NCBI GenBank assembly: GCA_003161495.1
Contig: PMOP01000340.1
Location: forward strand, 1-18,284
From: Acidobacteriota bacterium
GTDB taxonomy: Bacteria; Acidobacteriota; Terriglobia; Acidiferrales; UBA7541
Length of the DNA: 18,284 bases
Direction: 5' to 3'
The position numbers and the translations under genes are program-made. Positions 918 through 17,009 of this stretch are shown one piece after another. Within the stretch, counting starts at the first letter, position 1, and every line of letters starts with the position of its first letter. The notes under the pieces were generated by a model, which was not told where the DNA came from, ran no database searches, and worked only from the letters and a program-made list of their open reading frames with translations.

Positions 918-1160
918 ATGAAACCGGAAGCCATCCGAACTACTGTGGATATCCCTGCGTCCCTTTACCGCAGACTGAAAGAACAGGCCGCGGCACAAGG
1001 GCGGTCGGTCCGGGAACTCATTTTGGCGGGGGTCAAAATCACGTTATTGGAGGGCAAGCGCCCGCGAACAAAAAGGGTCTGCTTTCCACTGATCGTTTCC
1101 AAAGGTCCCAAAGTCGATCTTACCAACGAACAAATCTATGAACGCATTGAATTTCCTTGA
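918..1160 (+). CDS. Ribbon-helix-helix antitoxin, VapB-like
   Basis: This 80-residue protein starts with IRTTVDIPASLYRRLKEQAA (residues 6-25), a ribbon-helix-helix DNA-binding fold: one beta strand (RTTVDI) followed by two helices, with QGRSVRELILAGV as the second. The C-terminal half is rich in basic and then acidic residues and would be the part that wraps the toxin. In this family the antitoxin binds and silences the PIN-domain nuclease and, with it, represses the shared promoter. Its 3' end overlaps the toxin gene by 23 nt, which supports co-translation. The start ATG has only a weak upstream GGGA. The gene is divergent from the molybdenum hydroxylase genes across a 117-nt gap. Confidence 0.82.
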   Translation: MKPEAIRTTVDIPASLYRRLKEQAAAQGRSVRELILAGVKITLLEGKRPRTKRVCFPLIVSKGPKVDLTNEQIYERIEFP

Positions 1161-1563
1161 TGCCAACGTTTGGCTGGCTTTGCTCTGGAACCGGCATGTG
1201 CATTCAGACAGAGCGAAGGAATGGTTCGACAGGTCGGAAGAAGAGCAATTTTTCTTCTGCCGGTTCACTCAATTGACTGTTCTCCGGCTTCTCACCACTG
1301 AAAGCATAATGGGAAAAGATGTTCGGAGTTTGTCGCAGGCCTGGGACCTTTGGGACAAGATCTGGGCGGATCCGCGAATTGCATTCCTGCCGGAACCCGA
1401 AAACCTCGAGCCGGAGTTGCGGGTTCATACCCGTTTGACCAGCAGATCGCCTAAGGTCTGGGCCGACGCGTATCTGCTTTCCTTCGCCATCGTCGCTGGC
1501 TTGAAGTTGGTTACCTTCGATCGCGCGATTCAATCTCGCCGGGCTGATATTCTTATTCTCTGA
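1138..1563 (+). CDS. PIN-domain ribonuclease toxin, VapC-like
   Basis: The 141-residue protein is a PIN-domain nuclease, the toxin half of a VapBC pair; relatives cut tRNA or rRNA with Mg2+. The acidic metal-binding residues are visible as D8 in FLDANVWLALLW, D110 in KVWADAYLLSFA and D128 in LVTFDRAI. The segment CRFTQLTVLRLLT (41-53) is at the place where many members have a Glu after Thr; here it is Q45, which may change metal binding or may be normal for the subfamily. Length and motif order match the family once grouped with mycobacterial PIN proteins. The start codon lies inside the antitoxin gene. The gene ends 5 bp before the end of the convergent eutC gene, leaving no room for a separate terminator. 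Confidence 0.85.
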   Translation: MNALNFLDANVWLALLWNRHVHSDRAKEWFDRSEEEQFFFCRFTQLTVLRLLTTESIMGKDVRSLSQAWDLWDKIWADPRIAFLPEPENLEPELRVHTRLTSRSPKVWADAYLLSFAIVAGLKLVTFDRAIQSRRADILIL

Positions 1564-1568
1564 AAAAT

Positions 1569-2360
1569 CTATACCTTTATCGCTGGTCCGTCGAGAGCAG
1601 ATGCCAACTGCTCTCGGAGACTAAACCCGCTGATTCGCTGGGCCATCATCCGCGCTGCGAGGTTTAGGATCCGGTCTGCTGCGGTTTGCGAGTCGAGGCC
1701 GCGCGAGTGGATATTCGAAATAAGGTTACGATTCGCATCGGTGTTAGTTTTGCCGGGCTGATACGCCATGTAAGCGGATAAGCTCTCCGCGGTGGCAAGG
1801 CCTGGACGCTCGCCGATCAACAGGACGGCCACATTCGGCGCGAGCAATTCGCCAATTTCGTTCAGAATTCCTACGCGGCAGTGGCGAATCACAAATGGAT
1901 TGCCGATGGTCCAGCCGCGCGCTCGCGCTCCTTCTTCGAGCAGCGGCAATAGCGAAGGAACCTGCGCGACGACTGCCGTGACCGAAAGGCCGTCGCCGAT
2001 GGCGATCTGAATATCAGTTTCGCGCGTACAACGTTCCGCCAATTCTTGGCGCGATGTTTCATTCAAGCGGCGTCCGAGGTCCGGCTGCAGAAGATATTCT
2101 TGCTTGGAGCGTGCCTCGGTGCAGACCTCGAACAGATCCCATTGTTTGATAAACGCCCCGCCGAAGCCAGTTTCGAGATCCAACTCGGCGCGGACAGCAT
2201 CGCGCGCGGCGGCGTGCGCTTCGCGCAAATCCAACTGCGTCGAGGTGCGATATGAGGCGCCGGCGCGGCCCATAAAGATGCGCGCCGGAGTGCGTTCCCG
2301 AATTTTGCGCAAGCTATCGGGGAAATCGGCGGCGAGGAAGGAATCGGCGTCGCGCGGCAT
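1569..2360 (-). CDS. eutC: Ethanolamine ammonia-lyase small subunit
   Basis: EutC is the small subunit of adenosylcobalamin-dependent ethanolamine ammonia-lyase, which splits ethanolamine into acetaldehyde and ammonia. The 263-residue protein shows the conserved TPARIFMGRAGASYRTSTQL (24-43), then the DIQIAIGDGLSVTAV and IGERPGLATAESLSAYMAY blocks that help hold the cobalamin at the interface with EutB, and the PGKTNTDANRNLISNIHSRG segment near the C-terminus. Length is slightly short of the enterobacterial protein because the N-terminal extension is reduced. Its ATG directly abuts the eutB stop codon (TGA-ATG), so the subunits are made in step. No eutA-like reactivase, aldehyde dehydrogenase or shell gene follows; the next gene downstream is convergent. 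Confidence 0.95.
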   Translation of the reverse strand: MPRDADSFLAADFPDSLRKIRERTPARIFMGRAGASYRTSTQLDLREAHAAARDAVRAELDLETGFGGAFIKQWDLFEVCTEARSKQEYLLQPDLGRRLNETSRQELAERCTRETDIQIAIGDGLSVTAVVAQVPSLLPLLEEGARARGWTIGNPFVIRHCRVGILNEIGELLAPNVAVLLIGERPGLATAESLSAYMAYQPGKTNTDANRNLISNIHSRGLDSQTAADRILNLAARMMAQRISGFSLREQLASALDGPAIKV

Positions 2361-3752
2361 TCAGACAATTTCTCCCAGGGAAGATTCGAGGCCTTGCATC
2401 AGCTCGTGCCGCGCGGACGCACCGAGGAGCGCAGGTTCCGTGTCCCGGAAAATACCTTTCGTTTGCAGCCAGCTCAAAAATTCGGGCGCGGGACGCAGGT
2501 GGAACAGCTTTCGTGCGGCGAGAGCATCGTGGTAGCTGGTGGACTGATAATTCAGCATCACATCGTCCGATCCGGCAACGCCCATAAAGTAATTGCAGCC
2601 CGCTGCGGCCAGCAGCACTAAAAGATTGTCCGCGGAATTCTGATCGGCCGCGGCGTGATTCGTGTAGCAGACATCGCAGCCCATCGGCAGCCCCAGCAGC
2701 TTGCCCATGAAATGATCTTCCAGGCCGGCGCGAATGATCTGCCGCTCGTCGTAAAGATATTCCGGCCCGATAAATCCGACGACGCTGTTCACGAGGAATG
2801 GATGGAACACGCGGGCCACGCCATAGGCGCGAGCTTCGAGCGTGAGTTGATCTATTCCGTGATGAGCTTCCGCCGAAAGAGCGCTTCCTTGTCCCGTCTC
2901 GAAATACATCACGTTCGCGCCCTTCCAAGGAATGTCGCGTTTCGCGTGATGCTCAAGGACTTGCTCGCGACCTTCGCGCAGCATCTGGAGCGTGACGCCA
3001 AAACTGCTGTTGGCCGCCTCCGTGCCGGCAATGGATTGAAAGAGCAGATCCACCGGCGCGCCGCGCTTCATCGCTTCCAGTTGCGTTGTGATGTGTGCGA
3101 GACAGCAGGATTGCGTCGGCACGCCGTAAGCATCGATGAGCCGGGCCAACGCGCGCAGGATTGCACCCACCGTTTCCACCGAATCCGAAGCCGGATTCAC
3201 TCCAATCACCGCGTCGCCGCAACCGTACAACAACCCTTCAAAAGCGGCGAGCAAGATACCGCCGAGATCGTCCACGGGATGATTGGGCTGGATGCGAATT
3301 CCCAGCACACCGCATTCTCCCATCGTGTTCCGGCAGCGTGTCACATTCCTGATTTTCGCAGCGGCGAGGATGAGGTCCTTGTTGCTCATGAGTTTGGCAA
3401 CCGCCGCCGCGATTTCGGGAATGATCGCCCACTGGAGGTGTTTCAATTGATCTTCGCTCGTGGCGTCGTCGAGAATAAGTTCGCGGAATTCGCCCACGGT
3501 CATGCTCTGGATGGGTTGAAAGCGTTCCGCGTCGAAGGTTTCCAGGAGCAACCGGCTGACTTCGTCATGAGAAGGATCGATGAGAGGCTGCTGAACAATT
3601 TCGCCGAGAGAAAGATCCGCGAGCTTGCGCTTCGCGGCCACGCGTTCACGCTCCGAACGGGCGGCGAGCCCCGCCAATTGATCGCCGGATTTTTCCTCAT
3701 TGGCCTTTGCCAAGAGGTCACGCAAGTCGCGAAAGACAAATTGTTCAGGCAT
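2361..3752 (-). CDS. eutB: Ethanolamine ammonia-lyase large subunit
   Basis: EutB is the catalytic (beta/alpha)8-barrel subunit of B12-dependent ethanolamine ammonia-lyase. The 463 residues match the usual length. By motif comparison the substrate-binding residues are present: R153 and Q155 in RIQPNHP, N186 in GVNPA, E285 in FETGQGS and D360 in MGCDVCYTNHA, matching E. coli R160, Q162, N193, E287 and D362. The start has GGTGGGA about 5 nt upstream. The enzyme would supply ammonia as a nitrogen source and acetaldehyde as carbon from membrane-lipid ethanolamine. It is the first gene of a two-gene unit with eutC, 145 bp downstream of tRNA-Leu on the same strand. Nothing here encodes a carboxysome-like shell, so it probably acts free in the cytoplasm. 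Confidence 0.96.
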   Translation of the reverse strand: MPEQFVFRDLRDLLAKANEEKSGDQLAGLAARSERERVAAKRKLADLSLGEIVQQPLIDPSHDEVSRLLLETFDAERFQPIQSMTVGEFRELILDDATSEDQLKHLQWAIIPEIAAAVAKLMSNKDLILAAAKIRNVTRCRNTMGECGVLGIRIQPNHPVDDLGGILLAAFEGLLYGCGDAVIGVNPASDSVETVGAILRALARLIDAYGVPTQSCCLAHITTQLEAMKRGAPVDLLFQSIAGTEAANSSFGVTLQMLREGREQVLEHHAKRDIPWKGANVMYFETGQGSALSAEAHHGIDQLTLEARAYGVARVFHPFLVNSVVGFIGPEYLYDERQIIRAGLEDHFMGKLLGLPMGCDVCYTNHAAADQNSADNLLVLLAAAGCNYFMGVAGSDDVMLNYQSTSYHDALAARKLFHLRPAPEFLSWLQTKGIFRDTEPALLGASARHELMQGLESSLGEIV

Positions 3753-3897: not shown

Positions 3898-3984
3898 TGG
3901 TGCCCGAAAGAGGACTCGAACCTCCACTCCCTTGCGGGAACTAGCTCCTGAAGCTAGCGCGTCTGCCAATTCCGCCATTCGGGC
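3898..3984 (-). tRNA. tRNA-Leu (anticodon CAG)
   Basis: The minus strand folds as a class II tRNA of 87 nt including an encoded CCA. The acceptor stem GCCCGAA pairs with TTCGGGC, with A as discriminator base. The D arm holds TGGCAGACGCG. The anticodon stem CTAGC/GCTAG encloses the loop TTCAGGA, giving anticodon CAG, which reads the leucine codon CUG. A long variable arm (TTCCCGCAAGGGAG) confirms Leu rather than a class I tRNA. The T arm GGAGG-TTCGAGT-CCTCT is canonical. It has its own promoter 30-60 nt upstream. Confidence 0.97.
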
Positions 3985-13466: not shown

Positions 13467-13545
13467 GTAGGACGGGCTTCAGCTTGTCGGGTTTAGAGTT
13501 GCCATGCGCGCAGACCTAAAATCGACAGGCTGAAGCCCGTCCTAC
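13467..13545. repeat. REPIN-like element 1: two inverted REP sequences
   Basis: A REP unit, GTAG followed by GACGGGCTTCAGCTTGTC (13467-13488), faces an inverted copy GACAGGCTGAAGCCCGTC then CTAC (13524-13545), with 35 nt between. Each unit is itself a near-palindrome (GACGGGCT/AGCxTGTC), and the GTAG tetranucleotide at its foot is the mark of REPs mobilised by RAYT transposases. The arms match at all but one base (T for C). A worn single copy, GTAGGACGGCTTTAA, precedes it at 13452. It lies between divergent genes, 27 bp before the ThiF-family ATG, so it would be in that gene's leader. Confidence 0.8.
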
Positions 13546-13572: not shown

Positions 13573-14613
13573 ATGGACGCAAAATCCTACGAACGCTATT
13601 CGCGGCAGATTCTTTTCGGCGAAATCGGCGAGGCGGGCCAGGAGCGCCTGCTCGAATCCTCGGCCGTAATCGTGGGCTGCGGAGCGCTGGGAACCGCGCT
13701 GGCAAATTTGCTCGTGCGCGCGGGCGTCGGCAAGCTGCGCATCGTCGACCGCGATTTTGTCGAGCCTTCCAACCTGCAGCGGCAAACTCTGTTCGAGGAA
13801 TCCGACGCGCAGGAAGCCCTGCCGAAAGCCGTCGCCGCCGAGCGCCGACTGCGCGCCATTAATTCCGGAGTATCGGTCGAGGGAATCGTCGCGGACGTCA
13901 GCCCAAAAAACGCCGAGGAATTACTGCGCGGGTTCCCGCTCATTTTGGATGGGACGGACAATTTCGAGACGCGTTTCCTGCTGAACGATGTTGCGATCCA
14001 TCTAAACGTTCCGTGGATTTATGCCGCCGTGGTCGCCAGCTATGGCGTAACGCTTACCGTGCGACCGGGCGAAACGGCGTGCCTTGCATGCGCGCTCGAA
14101 TCCGAAAGCGCGAACGGTTCGCGAGCAACCGGCACGGAAGATACCTGTGACACCATCGGAGTTCTCGGCGCCGCTGCGGGAGTGATTGCATCGATTGAAG
14201 CCGCGGAAGCCATCAAGCTGCTCATCGGTAAATCCGAATCGGCGGGAGGGCGGATCATTTCCTTCGATGTCTGGTCCGGAAAATTTCAAACGGTGCGCGT
14301 GGCGCGCAATCCGGAATGCCGCGCGTGCGTCCGCCACGATTTCCGCTACCTGGAAGGCGAAGCGCAACCGCACCTGACCATGTGCGGCCGCGATTCCGTC
14401 CAGATCCACGAGCGCCGCCGCCAACTCGATCTCGCCGCGCTGGGAAAACGCATCGCGCCCACAGTCGCCGAAGTGCGCGAAAATGGTTTTCTCCTACGCT
14501 TCCGTGTCCCCCCCTATGAAATGACAGTCTTCGCCGACGGCCGCGCCATAATCAAAGGCACCCGCGACCCCAGCGTCGCCCGTTCCCTCTACGCCCGCTA
14601 CATCGGGATTTAG
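13573..14613 (+). CDS. ThiF/MoeB-family E1-like adenylyltransferase
   Basis: This 346-residue enzyme would adenylate the C-terminal Gly-Gly of a ubiquitin-like sulfur carrier (ThiS or MoaD) for thiamine or molybdopterin synthesis. It has the nucleotide-binding GCGALG (35-40), the D59/D61 pair and NLQRQ (67-71) of the ATP site, K85, and DGTDN (126-130). Zinc ligands are C170/C173 (CLAC) and C249/C252 (CRAC). C192 in TCDTIGVLG is the candidate catalytic cysteine. In place of a rhodanese domain it ends in a tail of about 75 residues (MCGRDSVQI... TVFADGRAIIKGT... SLYARYIG), which resembles the tail of Firmicute ThiF proteins. The start has only a distant GGAG (15 nt). No carrier gene is adjacent, so ThiF or MoeB cannot be chosen. 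Its stop codon abuts REPIN element 2. Confidence 0.9.
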   Translation: MDAKSYERYSRQILFGEIGEAGQERLLESSAVIVGCGALGTALANLLVRAGVGKLRIVDRDFVEPSNLQRQTLFEESDAQEALPKAVAAERRLRAINSGVSVEGIVADVSPKNAEELLRGFPLILDGTDNFETRFLLNDVAIHLNVPWIYAAVVASYGVTLTVRPGETACLACALESESANGSRATGTEDTCDTIGVLGAAAGVIASIEAAEAIKLLIGKSESAGGRIISFDVWSGKFQTVRVARNPECRACVRHDFRYLEGEAQPHLTMCGRDSVQIHERRRQLDLAALGKRIAPTVAEVRENGFLLRFRVPPYEMTVFADGRAIIKGTRDPSVARSLYARYIGI

Positions 14614-14695
14614 TAGGACGGGCTTCAGCCTGTCTGGTTTTGATTCTTGTAGAGTCGGCAGAAGTCAAAAAAAGACAGGCTGAAGCCCGTCCTAC
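14613..14695. repeat. REPIN-like element 2: perfect inverted REP pair
   Basis: GTAG and GACGGGCTTCAGCCTGTC (14613-14634) face an exact inverted copy (14674-14695) across about 39 nt. Including flanking bases the match is perfect over 25 bp per arm (14611-14635 against 14673-14697). The element lies between convergent genes: the TAG stop of the ThiF-family gene is its first three bases, and the dual-OB gene ends 37 bp after it. The RNA hairpin could protect or end both transcripts, but no U-tract follows on either strand, so it is not a standard intrinsic terminator. Confidence 0.88.
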
Positions 14696-14733
14696 TAAAC
14701 GCACTTCAAACGCCGCACACATCATCCTTGGAA

Positions 14734-15432
14734 TTATTCGAGCGAAGGCCAGCCATCGGGTGGTTGCAGCACGGCCGCCACGAGCTTGAAACAATAGCCA
14801 TTGTCTAACGGCTCGCCCAGACTGATCGTAAAATAAAGTTCGTTTTCATTCTGGATCCCCAACTGCGCCGAAGAATATTCGCCCAGCGGCAGGTCTTTTA
14901 GCATGTCGTCATAAGGAATATCCGTGACCGCGAGATCGTATGGAACTGCATCGAGATGGAAGCGTACCCGCAATTGTTTCTTCCAGCCGGGAGTGCGTTT
15001 TGCGATCCACCGTGGATGAACAGGCTTCGCCAAAAGGAGAGAAGCCTTGGCGGGCGCACCGTCGAATTCGCGATACGCAACCCTGTCTAAGGTATTTCCG
15101 AACAAGACGCAACCTCGATACAGCACTTTCTTCAGAAGAGGGGCATGCTCTTTTGGGCATGGTCTGCAAACCAGGCTCCACGGAGAGCATTGAATTCTCC
15201 AGTTTTCAGGCTGTTTTTTTACGGGACAATGCGCTTCCAGACAGGCGGAAACAACGTCAAAGTTTTTCATGTCTCCACCGTTGGGGAAATGGACTTGGCG
15301 AGGGGGAAGTTCACCATGCACCTCCTTGCTGATGGGCCGAATCCACTCGCCGGTGTCGAGCCGCACTCCGGCCACACAACGCTGCGAATATTTTTTAGAA
15401 TGGGCCATGCAGATGAACTGGACTTGCCGCAC
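14734..15432 (-). CDS. Dual OB-containing (DuOB) domain protein
   Basis: The 232-residue protein begins with FICMAHSKKYSQRCVAGVRL (6-25) and then DTGEWIRPISKEVHGEL. This 'NSRKYSGRCVAG...GEWIRPVS' pattern is typical of proteins annotated with a dual OB-fold domain. OB folds usually bind nucleic acid or nucleotides, but no ligand or activity is established here. The middle holds ENWRI and a Cys-rich stretch (IQCSPWSLVCRPCPKEH). The C-terminal half has LRVRFHLDAVPYDLAVTDI and LYFTISLGEPLDNGYCFKLV, repeated beta-rich elements that would be the second OB fold. The start is GTG at 15432, 15 nt after the stop of a DUF488 gene; the ATG at 15408 would cut into the conserved beginning. It is the last gene of a three-gene unit with two DUF488 proteins. 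Confidence 0.75.
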   Translation of the reverse strand: MRQVQFICMAHSKKYSQRCVAGVRLDTGEWIRPISKEVHGELPPRQVHFPNGGDMKNFDVVSACLEAHCPVKKQPENWRIQCSPWSLVCRPCPKEHAPLLKKVLYRGCVLFGNTLDRVAYREFDGAPAKASLLLAKPVHPRWIAKRTPGWKKQLRVRFHLDAVPYDLAVTDIPYDDMLKDLPLGEYSSAQLGIQNENELYFTISLGEPLDNGYCFKLVAAVLQPPDGWPSLE

Positions 15433-15447
15433 GCACCCATATACATC

Positions 15448-15885
15448 CTAAAGGTGGTGGATTGTCAAGTTAGACCATTTTTGCTGGAGATACTGCAGGA
15501 CGAGCCGGCGGTGGCAATGATCCGGCTTAGGCTCGCTGCACAGTAGAACTGTCGGAATTGCGAATATACCAGTGTCGAGTTTTTCCTCGACTCTCCGCTC
15601 CGCCATCAAGGAAAGAAACCTTTGCTCATATTCTTCCCAGCTTCCTTTGTTCTTCTTGTATTCGTCCAGCATTTCTTGTGTCGGCGCCAGCAAAGGTTCA
15701 TGCTTGTATTCCGCGCCGCAAATTTCACGCAGAAAATATTGAAGGTCATCGCGTTTGCTGAAACCCGCCAGCTGCGAGATATTATTGAGGCGCACGTCGA
15801 GCAACTTCCGAATGCCAGCGCTTTTTAGTAGGCTGAAGAATTGTTCGGCCGTTTTTTTCGTAAAACCGATGGAATAGACTTCCAC
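15448..15885 (-). CDS. DUF488 family protein B (short)
   Basis: The 145-residue protein is a DUF488 member. It starts VEVYSIGFTKKTAEQFFSLL (1-20), followed by GIRKLLDVRLNN (24-35), and carries the signature VLLCSEPKPDHCHRRLVL (C116, C124, H125, R126). It ends KWSNLTIHHL as expected for a complete domain. The Cys and Cys-His-Arg of this signature are the likely active-site or metal-site residues, but the reaction of the family is not known to me. The start is GTG at 15885, chosen because AGGCGG lies 4 nt upstream and the domain begins at once. The open frame above it encodes low-complexity Arg/Ser/Pro sequence antisense-like to no domain. Its first 61 nt overlap the end of the DUF488 A gene in another frame. 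Confidence 0.85.
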   Translation of the reverse strand: MEVYSIGFTKKTAEQFFSLLKSAGIRKLLDVRLNNISQLAGFSKRDDLQYFLREICGAEYKHEPLLAPTQEMLDEYKKNKGSWEEYEQRFLSLMAERRVEEKLDTGIFAIPTVLLCSEPKPDHCHRRLVLQYLQQKWSNLTIHHL

Positions 15886-16442
15886 GGTTCCGCCTCGGCT
15901 TTCTGAAAGAGGGACAACTGGTCGCGGTCCGGATCGGCCTCGGCCGCGACTTCCTCCTCCGATTGAATCCGGCCGTCGCCGCGAATGTGTTGCACTTGAA
16001 TTCCGCGATCGAGGAGCACCCGGCCGACCAGCAATCGGCGGTGGCACGCGGCTGGATTTTCCTCGGCGCACAGCATCGCGACATGGTATTCGCGGATTCC
16101 GCGCTCCAGCCGCGTTAACCCTTCTTGAAAAACGCAGGTGGCCGCGACGCGGTCATACAGGACATGCCCTTCGTCATCGTAAAATTCGTCGCCCTCGGGC
16201 CGGCCGCCGAGTTCCCGCCCGAGATATAGATAACGGATTCCAGCGTCCTGCAGGACCGGCTTCAGCGCCTCATGATCGAACTGCGTGGCATATTTGGAGT
16301 AGGGCTGTGAGCGCGTATCCACGACCACCTGGATGCCGTGCGCCTTCAACAAGCTAAGGAAATGTTCCACGGTATGATTGGAATGGCCGACCGTAAAGAC
16401 GCGCGGGCTCGCAGTAGAGTTATTTTGCATTTGCGGCGGCAT
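15825..16442 (-). CDS. DUF488 family protein A (long)
   Basis: The 205-residue protein is a second DUF488 member. It has VFTVGHSNHTVEHFLSLL (15-32), the VVVDTRSQPYSKYATQF segment (39-55), YLGRELGGRP (73-82) and the signature MLCAEENPAACHRRLLVG (C125, C133, H134, R135). Both DUF488 proteins here share the spacing C-x7-CHRR but differ greatly elsewhere, so they are not a recent duplication. After the domain, about residues 155-205 form an acidic then basic tail (SEEEVAAEADPDRDQLSLFQ... RKKRPNNSSAY) that probably lacks fixed structure. ATG at 16442 or 16430 could start it; neither has a clear ribosome site. It heads the unit with DUF488 B and the dual-OB protein, all on the minus strand. Confidence 0.87.
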   Translation of the reverse strand: MPPQMQNNSTASPRVFTVGHSNHTVEHFLSLLKAHGIQVVVDTRSQPYSKYATQFDHEALKPVLQDAGIRYLYLGRELGGRPEGDEFYDDEGHVLYDRVAATCVFQEGLTRLERGIREYHVAMLCAEENPAACHRRLLVGRVLLDRGIQVQHIRGDGRIQSEEEVAAEADPDRDQLSLFQKAEAEPWKSIPSVLRKKRPNNSSAY

Positions 16443-16511
16443 GCTCGTGCACGCCAGTTTATCACAGGGAAGGAATTCCGAAGTTGTTCGCGCAGCGCAG
16501 CGAGCGGCGGC

Positions 16512-16856
16512 CTAGCTGCTTCGGCCGATGGGTTGCCGGAGAGCGGCGCGATCGAGATTTTCGCGCAGGTTCATTAAAGTGAGGAAAGTGTTCAGCACGC
16601 GCGCTTTCATTTCGTCGGCCAGGTGAATGCCGCTTGTGGAAGCGCGCGCCAGCATTTCTCCATGGTCGGCGATGAAGCGAATGATTTCGACCTGGCGCGC
16701 ATGGGGAGTTTTTCCGTACACAGTTTCACGCCGCATCTGGGCGCAATCGTTTTCGACTTTCAGCGTGAAATGAAGCATGCAGAGGTGGACCGCTTCAAGT
16801 GCCGCGGGCACCTGTCCCTTGCATCCGTTTTCACTGCACGCCGTATGTGTAGCCAT
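16512..16856 (-). CDS. Small Cys/His protein, possible zinc finger
   Basis: I do not recognise a named family. The 114-residue product has C7, C12, C26 and H29 near its N-terminus (C-x4-C-x13-C-x2-H), a spacing that could hold one zinc ion. The rest is predicted mostly helical and charged (RQVEIIRFIADHGEMLARAS, then DEMKARVLNTFLTLMNLREN). It contains no signal peptide or membrane segment, so it is cytoplasmic. The ATG at 16856 is preceded by GGAG at some distance; that GGAG can pair with a CTCC between it and the start. The gene ends 69 bp before the DUF488 A gene on the same strand, so it might be the first gene of that unit or independent. It is divergent from the pepF-like gene. Confidence 0.6.
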   Translation of the reverse strand: MATHTACSENGCKGQVPAALEAVHLCMLHFTLKVENDCAQMRRETVYGKTPHARQVEIIRFIADHGEMLARASTSGIHLADEMKARVLNTFLTLMNLRENLDRAALRQPIGRSS

Positions 16857-17009
16857 GGCTGGGAGCGCACTCCGAGTCTATGATTGTAAGCACCCCTTAT
16901 GCCAAAAATCCAGTTGGTCCGCAAAATGTGCTACGAATCAGCCATCTGCATGCCTGCCGAATGCCAAATTCCCAGATAAAGCCATTCAAACGCATCGAGG
17001 GGAACGGGT

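Follow-up and report, generated by a model that had tools for sequence, protein, structure and literature searches.

A conserved DUF488-DUF488-DuOB cassette in an Acidobacteriota genome: a catalogued phage-defence candidate that may process DNA ends

Results

Gene layout and family assignment

The window is the whole stretch of DNA analysed here, 18,284 nucleotides (nt) from an Acidobacteriota bacterium (assembly GCA_003161495.1, contig PMOP01000340.1). Our subject is a cassette of three genes within it, two encoding DUF488 proteins (B and C) and one encoding a dual-OB protein of the DuOB family (A). All three lie on the minus strand, at 16442..15825 (B), 15885..15448 (C) and 15432..14734 (A) in the list of open reading frames. 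The features of the cassette, each with its evidence in brackets, are as follows.

15825..16442, minus strand: gene B, DUF488, PDC-M45B type, 205 amino acids (aa), ATG start (open reading frame, Pfam, PADLOC, AlphaFold2)
15448..15885, minus strand: gene C, DUF488 (DUF488-N3a above cut-off), PDC-M45C type, 145 aa, GTG start (open reading frame, Pfam, PADLOC, length of relatives)
14734..15432, minus strand: gene A, DuOB (dual OB), PDC-M45A type, 232 aa, GTG start (Pfam, PADLOC, AlphaFold2, Foldseek)
15825..15885, minus strand: overlap of B and C, 61 nt (gene coordinates)
15433..15447, minus strand: gap between the stop of C and the start of A, 15 nt, with AGGATG upstream of the GTG of A (sequence)
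16035..16070, minus strand: active-site-like loop of B, CAEENPAACHRR, residues 125-136, at a strand end and before a helix (sequence)
15505..15540, minus strand: active-site-like loop of C, CSEPKPDHCHRR, residues 116-127 (sequence)

The arrangement agrees with a preliminary description of this DNA, which had two DUF488 genes and a DuOB gene on one strand with a 61-nt overlap and a gap of 14-15 nt; the gap is 15 nt. GAGG lies inside gene B, 5' of the GTG of C, and AGGATG lies 5' of the GTG of A, and both would serve as ribosome sites. The frame of gene C is open as far up as a GTG at 16071; because 117 of the 120 relatives among the matches listed (one of them the window's own protein) are 145 aa long, the start is placed at the GTG at 15885. 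A scan for one type of promoter found a single promoter-like site in 14560-16900, on the opposite strand, where 1.1 are expected by chance, and therefore B, C and A are probably carried by one transcript.

The family identities, read from motifs in the preliminary description, are borne out by Pfam. Both B (E=8.1e-23, 81.8 bits) and C (E=2.2e-23, 83.6 bits) match DUF488 (PF04343, curated cut-off 22.2), C also matches DUF488-N3a above its cut-off (2.9e-10), and A matches DuOB (PF22557) with E=1.9e-37 and 129.8 bits against a curated cut-off of 27. Matches of this strength for all three proteins rule out chance or an artefact of motif reading.

The same proteins are found in PADLOC-DB 2.0.0 of 2023, where the best match of A is PDC-M45A (PDLC04653, E=4e-32), that of B is PDC-M45B (PDLC04657, E=4.4e-58, residues 14-167) and that of C is PDC-M45C (PDLC04658, E=1.2e-68, over the whole protein). 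The three genes stand side by side on one strand, in the order B-C-A. By these profile matches the trio is a complete accessory cassette of the PDC-M45 kind, an already-catalogued phage-defence candidate, and the earlier suggestion of an undescribed system has to be given up. Two papers describe 'guilt-by-embedding' as the source of PADLOC-type candidates (PMC12988326, PMC10855318), and a trio found inside an Hma locus in another genome (L068) is what they lead one to expect of such a candidate. The Hma genes themselves (HmaA, HmaB and HmaC, with SNF2 helicase, DUF1156 methylase and DUF499 ATPase) were not found among the 16 window proteins run against Pfam. Among the matches listed from open-licence papers we found neither an account of the B/C/DuOB trio nor the name PDC-M45.

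The trio across genomes

A genome-collection scan with a DuOB alignment matched 118 stretches, 84 of which were confirmed, and the best 80 were kept as loci (L numbers) and typed with A, B and C profiles built in this analysis. Both DUF488 genes lie beside DuOB in 65 of the 80 loci, 40 in the order A-B-C, 24 in the order B-C-A and one as A-C-B, a count that includes four trios (L098, L099, L101, L102) whose DuOB frame is in two or three pieces and was scored as one; the scan was keyed on conserved DuOB motifs, so that linkage in divergent DuOBs is undersampled. Two loci read A-C-DUF4326, and the remaining 13 are partial or lone, among them L028, L035, L074, L083 and L084, at or near a contig end, and L106 and L107, which hold only gene fragments. 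Apart from some unassigned records, the 65 trios cover 15 named phyla, and a Methanomassiliicoccales archaeon is among the carriers. This spread rules out an adjacency confined to close relatives, the outcome named beforehand as one that would speak against a fixed partnership. The partnership proposed in the preliminary description draws support from the same counts and from the position of the sole promoter-like site at the locus, on the other strand.

The packing is also shared. B and C overlap in 20 of the 24 B-C-A loci (median -58 nt) and in 29 of 39 A-B-C loci; the lengths are approximate, since the script took the earliest Met of each open frame as the gene start. Because the overlap recurs in 20 of 24 loci of the same order, the tight packing is, on these gene coordinates, not chance. 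Distances between the proteins are correlated across 64 loci (Mantel r of 0.65 for A-B, 0.58 for A-C and 0.63 for B-C), and none of 999 permutations gave values as high. In a DuOB tree of 66 rows, which omits pieces shorter than 200 aa and places the long rows L015 and L017 unsurely, the two gene orders need 2 changes, compared with 20.8 when labels are shuffled, while phyla are mixed on both gene-order sides. We take this pattern to mean that the complete cassette has been exchanged among phyla.

Plasmids carry it too: 19 plasmid records have a match, and the six examined comprise three A-B-C and three A-C-DUF4326 loci (DUF4326 by Pfam in L024). Within the host class, 16 of 299 genomes (G numbers) have DuOB, nine of them with the usual DUF488 pair beside it (G000, G082, G093, G106, G130, G189, G227, G262, G289) and one, G016, with a divergent pair. 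Divergent forms occur elsewhere as well; in L131 the third gene next to the DUF488 pair is a divergent DuOB of 21.3 bits, compared with the Pfam cut-off of 27, and in L127 the third gene has no Pfam match and similar letters at the same place as DuOB.

The DUF488 proteins B and C

That both DUF488 proteins keep the same C-x7-CHRR signature, as first described, is exact for residues 125-136 of B and 116-127 of C. Residues C125, E127, C133, H134 and R135 of the B loop are invariant in 40 aligned rows, as are C116, E118, C124, H125, R126 and R127 of the C loop in 26 rows, over which the mean column identity of gene C is 63%. Among proteins longer than 130 aa in loci L020-L107, C-x7-CHRR is present in 74 of 75 C proteins and in 14 of 73 B proteins, and C-x-E-x5-C-H-R is present in 72 of 73 B proteins; the second arginine is not general in B.

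The AlphaFold2 model of B, with a mean predicted local distance difference test (pLDDT) score of 85.2, has a fold like that of protein tyrosine phosphatases (PTP) and dual-specificity phosphatases. In its predicted secondary structure the loop cysteine sits between the end of a strand and a helix, a feature of the rhodanese-phosphatase superfamily, and B resembles in these two respects the phosphatases DUF442, PRL-1, KAP and SsoPTP. This predicted fold suggests a cysteine loop rather than metal binding. B differs from these phosphatases in the spacing of cysteine and arginine, which is x9 (C125 to R135) and not the x5 of the classical PTP loop. The structural matches shown for the B model are mainly phosphatases and methyltransferases, with the methyltransferases scoring alike. 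A sequence search for relatives of solved structure gave none that was convincing.

Burroughs and Aravind reportedly defined in 2023 a RapZ-C-DUF488-DUF4326 clade of the rhodanese-phosphatase superfamily, with DNA-end processing predicted in conflict systems. The window's proteins are like theirs in having a DUF488 domain with a loop cysteine, and DUF4326 replaces one DUF488 in related cassettes. The loop cysteine together with a conserved D-x-R near the second strand, both rhodanese-like features, could instead point to sulfur transfer, in which the pair would add sulfur to nucleic acid or remove it, loosely like phosphorothioation systems. A ThiF-family gene does flank the window's cassette, yet it is a host gene kept by relatives without the cassette; no cysteine desulfurase or sulfur carrier gene is annotated in the six plasmid loci examined, and the preponderance of phosphatases and methyltransferases among the structural matches of B also speaks against such chemistry, which we consider very improbable.

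The DuOB protein

The AlphaFold2 model of A (pLDDT 96.7) consists of OB folds in a row. Foldseek with this model returns OB-fold binders of nucleic acid; a HIN-200 domain ranks first, and the rows shown also include Teb1, LEF-3 and RPA. The HIN-200 match has E=1.8e-4, but template modelling (TM) scores of 0.34 and 0.39, and a second aligner aligns mainly OB1. The predicted model resembles HIN-200 domains (MNDA, IFI16, p204), RPA, LEF-3 and Teb1 in its succession of OB folds; with TM scores mostly of 0.2-0.4 and identities of at most 13% in the rows shown, the likeness is one of fold and gives no sign of common descent. Judged by its model, A is probably a DNA-binding protein.

Other DuOB architectures were seen in passing. 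One genus of the host class has DuOB forms without DUF488 (L128:4643-6631, L010, L011, L014), and in L010, L011 and L014 a 324-aa gene directly follows DuOB, with no Pfam match in the one checked. Two cyanobacterial DuOB proteins (L039:9677-10846, L049:10001-11170) are 390 aa long and have a C-terminal extension of about 150 aa; no DUF488 partner was detected in either locus.

Fusions and replacements

In L089 a single protein joins a RecQ helicase (DEAD, Helicase_C, zinc, RQC, HRDC and HTH_40 by Pfam) to a DuOB that comes after it, and B and C lie downstream. The same RecQ-then-DuOB layout is found in L063 (55% identity to the L089 helicase), L062 (54%, cut by a contig end) and L074 (41%), in L051, where the helicase is split over two frames, and in L087, where a helicase tail stands at the contig end. 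L129 has the opposite layout, DuOB first and then RecQ in one protein (Pfam), beside divergent B and C. Because the domain orders are opposite, RecQ and DuOB would have been fused separately at least twice. B and C are themselves fused in L124, where a single chain of 349 aa keeps both loops intact; the 10-kb stretch of this locus yielded no DuOB.

DUF4326 replaces B in five loci (L024-L026, L066, L093); the Citrobacter form with DUF4326 has no near matches in E. coli genomes. All of these forms, the RecQ-DuOB fusions of both orders, the DUF4326 replacement and the B-C fusion, were found here, though they may possibly have been described before by Burroughs and Aravind in 2023. One published proposal (PMC9503650) is that DUF4326 acts on the terminal phosphate joined to ribose in ADP-ribose or in products of its breakdown. 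A protein with that proposed role in the place of B, and the standing of a HIN-200 domain, from a family of DNA sensors, as the top structural match of DuOB, would both suit an abortive sensor-effector system, in which DuOB detects foreign DNA and the DUF488 pair consumes a small molecule (derivatives of NAD+ or ADP-ribose, or nucleotides) until growth stops. The RecQ fusions in both orientations point rather to work on DNA itself, and no nucleotide- or NAD-metabolism family is among the Pfam, NCBIfam and PHROGs matches of A, B and C; we regard an abortive system as unlikely.

Neighbouring defence genes

Outside the window the cassette is met among defence genes in some genomes. It lies between HmaB and HmaC in L068 and near a cyclase gene of a cyclic-oligonucleotide-based antiphage signalling system (CBASS) and a HORMA gene in Agrobacterium; in Allochromatium it adjoins CRISPR type III genes, and in L055 a type I restriction specificity gene. 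In five loci DuOB is preceded, at a distance of up to about 31 nt, by a gene of the Schlafen AlbA_2 type (assigned by Pfam in L073 and L103), and two contigs of a virus collection carry A-B-C; DuOB has no match in annotated phages. For 15 of the 80 loci, those on long contigs, we set the 8 genes closest to the cassette against 8 from a stretch at least 45 kb away on the same contig. At E<=1e-20 there are 142 PADLOC models in the 120 flanking proteins versus 23 in the 120 control proteins, and at E<=1e-50 there are 33 versus 0 (best control E 7.2e-49); these are counts of overlapping models and not of proteins, and one locus contributes HmaA, HmaB and HmaC.

These surroundings bear on a second alternative, that the cassette is an accessory module of DNA repair or DNA-end cleaning, not primarily immune, which works together with RecQ on blocked ends and is carried along by mobile DNA. 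The RecQ fusions agree with it, as do the next gene downstream in L105, which has MutS_V and Smr domains, and the location of the cassette, in the chromosome among core genes in the window and in metabolic surroundings elsewhere. Immunity gives the better fit to the patchy occurrence on plasmids and virus contigs and to the higher density of defence-gene models near the cassette than in control stretches, and a repair module is in our judgement not likely.

As a separate observation, L060:11843-15079, downstream of A-B-C, encodes a protein of 1079 aa that has an SLFN_AlbA_2 domain at its N-terminus and no PADLOC match at E<=0.001.

The insertion site and the rest of the window

Three features adjoin the cassette in the window.

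16512..16856, minus strand: flank, outside the cassette, 114-aa gene of the host family (found without the cassette in G098, G102 and G126)
13573..14613, plus strand: flank, outside the cassette, ThiF-family gene (Pfam ThiF 6.7e-72; syntenic in empty-site genomes)
14611..14697, no strand assigned: inverted repeat formed by TAGTAGGACGGGCTTCAGCCTGTCT with its complement, separating the cassette from ThiF and overlapping the ThiF stop codon, terminator-like, one of a palindromic repeat family found throughout the genome

In three genomes of the same genus (G098, G102, G126) and one of another genus in the same family (G297), BamA, ThiF and the 114-aa gene stand in the order of the window and there is no cassette; SurA is likewise in order in the three empty-site genomes whose stretch reaches it. 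The spacing from ThiF to the 114-aa gene at the empty site is about 176 nt in G098, 569 in G102, 680 in G126 and 56 in G297, and in G102 and G126 the space holds a hemerythrin-type gene (Pfam in G102, 7.1e-12; by similar letters in G126). Because relatives have the flanks without the cassette, it was gained at, or lost from, one spot; gene order shows all three genes arriving or leaving together at that site.

The 114-aa gene was considered as a fourth component, since it precedes both copies of the cassette in the bin, and was ruled out: it is family-wide (71 of the 299 genomes in the class have it, and 67 of these belong to the host's own family) and is present without the cassette. The other copy in the bin, on contig C434 (G000:C434, L132), runs from the 114-aa gene through B, C and A to what is, by its letters, the start of a hemerythrin-type gene; its B is 85% identical to the window's and its DNA 77% identical over 2.1 kb. 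A true second copy in the genome is less likely than the corresponding locus of another strain or species present in the bin (contamination 2.62%), because the contig shares the upstream gene and has the hemerythrin-type gene of the G102 and G126 empty sites.

Each strand of the 3.9-Mb bin contains 76 copies of a 19-mer, the palindrome arm GGACGGGCTTCAGCCTGTC, with at most one mismatch (reversed control, 0). In the window its arms are at 14616-14634, 14674-14692 and 13524-13542, and in the bin they often form facing pairs a few dozen nt apart. By these counts the GGACGGGCTTCAGCCTGTC palindrome is a repeat family of the host resembling repetitive extragenic palindromic (REP) elements.

Elsewhere the window encodes a probable VapBC-type toxin-antitoxin pair at 918-1563 (plus strand), a ribbon-helix-helix gene, with matches under the cut-offs, followed by an overlapping PIN-domain gene; the ethanolamine ammonia-lyase genes EutC and EutB at 1569-3752 (minus strand); and a tRNA at 3901-3984 (minus strand), the only Rfam match in the window.

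Discussion

We propose, with a probability of about one half, that DuOB delivers helicase-exposed DNA to a cysteine-loop DUF488 pair that processes DNA ends, in an antiviral or anti-mobile-element role. B and C would be a pair of cysteine-loop enzymes of the PTP or rhodanese type. DuOB would bind nucleic acid, with single strands or helicase-opened ends as its most likely target, and would present it to the B-C pair; the helicase would be RecQ in the fused forms and others acting in trans elsewhere. Phosphotransfer through the loop cysteine would then act on a phosphate or sugar-phosphate at the DNA end, and invading DNA would be blocked or destroyed, making this an antiviral or anti-mobile-element cassette. 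As a whole, the evidence speaks more for a pair of cysteine enzymes directed at nucleic acid than for any fixed chemistry. To our knowledge, no characterised defence system uses chemistry of the PTP or rhodanese type on DNA. It is conceivable, if rather doubtful, that the cassette forms an immune complex of bacteria and archaea: its tandem-OB protein, HIN-like and in some lineages joined to RecQ, would feed exposed DNA to a paired cysteine phosphotransferase that processes DNA ends chemically.

Several observations weigh against our proposal. Six genomes of the host class (G069, G097, G237, G249, G252, G282) have no DUF488 near DuOB in the stretches examined, which reach at most 1.5 kb to each side in four genomes and about 5 kb in G097 and G249, so that forms of DuOB without DUF488 exist; DuOB without DUF488 neighbours is also found among the partial or lone loci of the 80-locus set. 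L072 adjoins a dehydrogenase gene of metabolic type, and the flanks of the window's own cassette are host genes. The link to nucleic acid and defence raised in the preliminary description therefore stands in part: the OB-fold model, the RecQ fusions and the defence neighbours elsewhere strengthen it, and DuOB without DUF488 in some genomes detracts from it.

Genomes of one genus with and without the cassette at a single site indicate that it comes or goes as a unit. The spread of the trio over 15 named phyla, the DUF4326 replacement, the B-C fusion and the RecQ fusions turn a catalogue entry into a testable proposal, in which the candidate would be a DNA-directed, cysteine-dependent end-processing complex.
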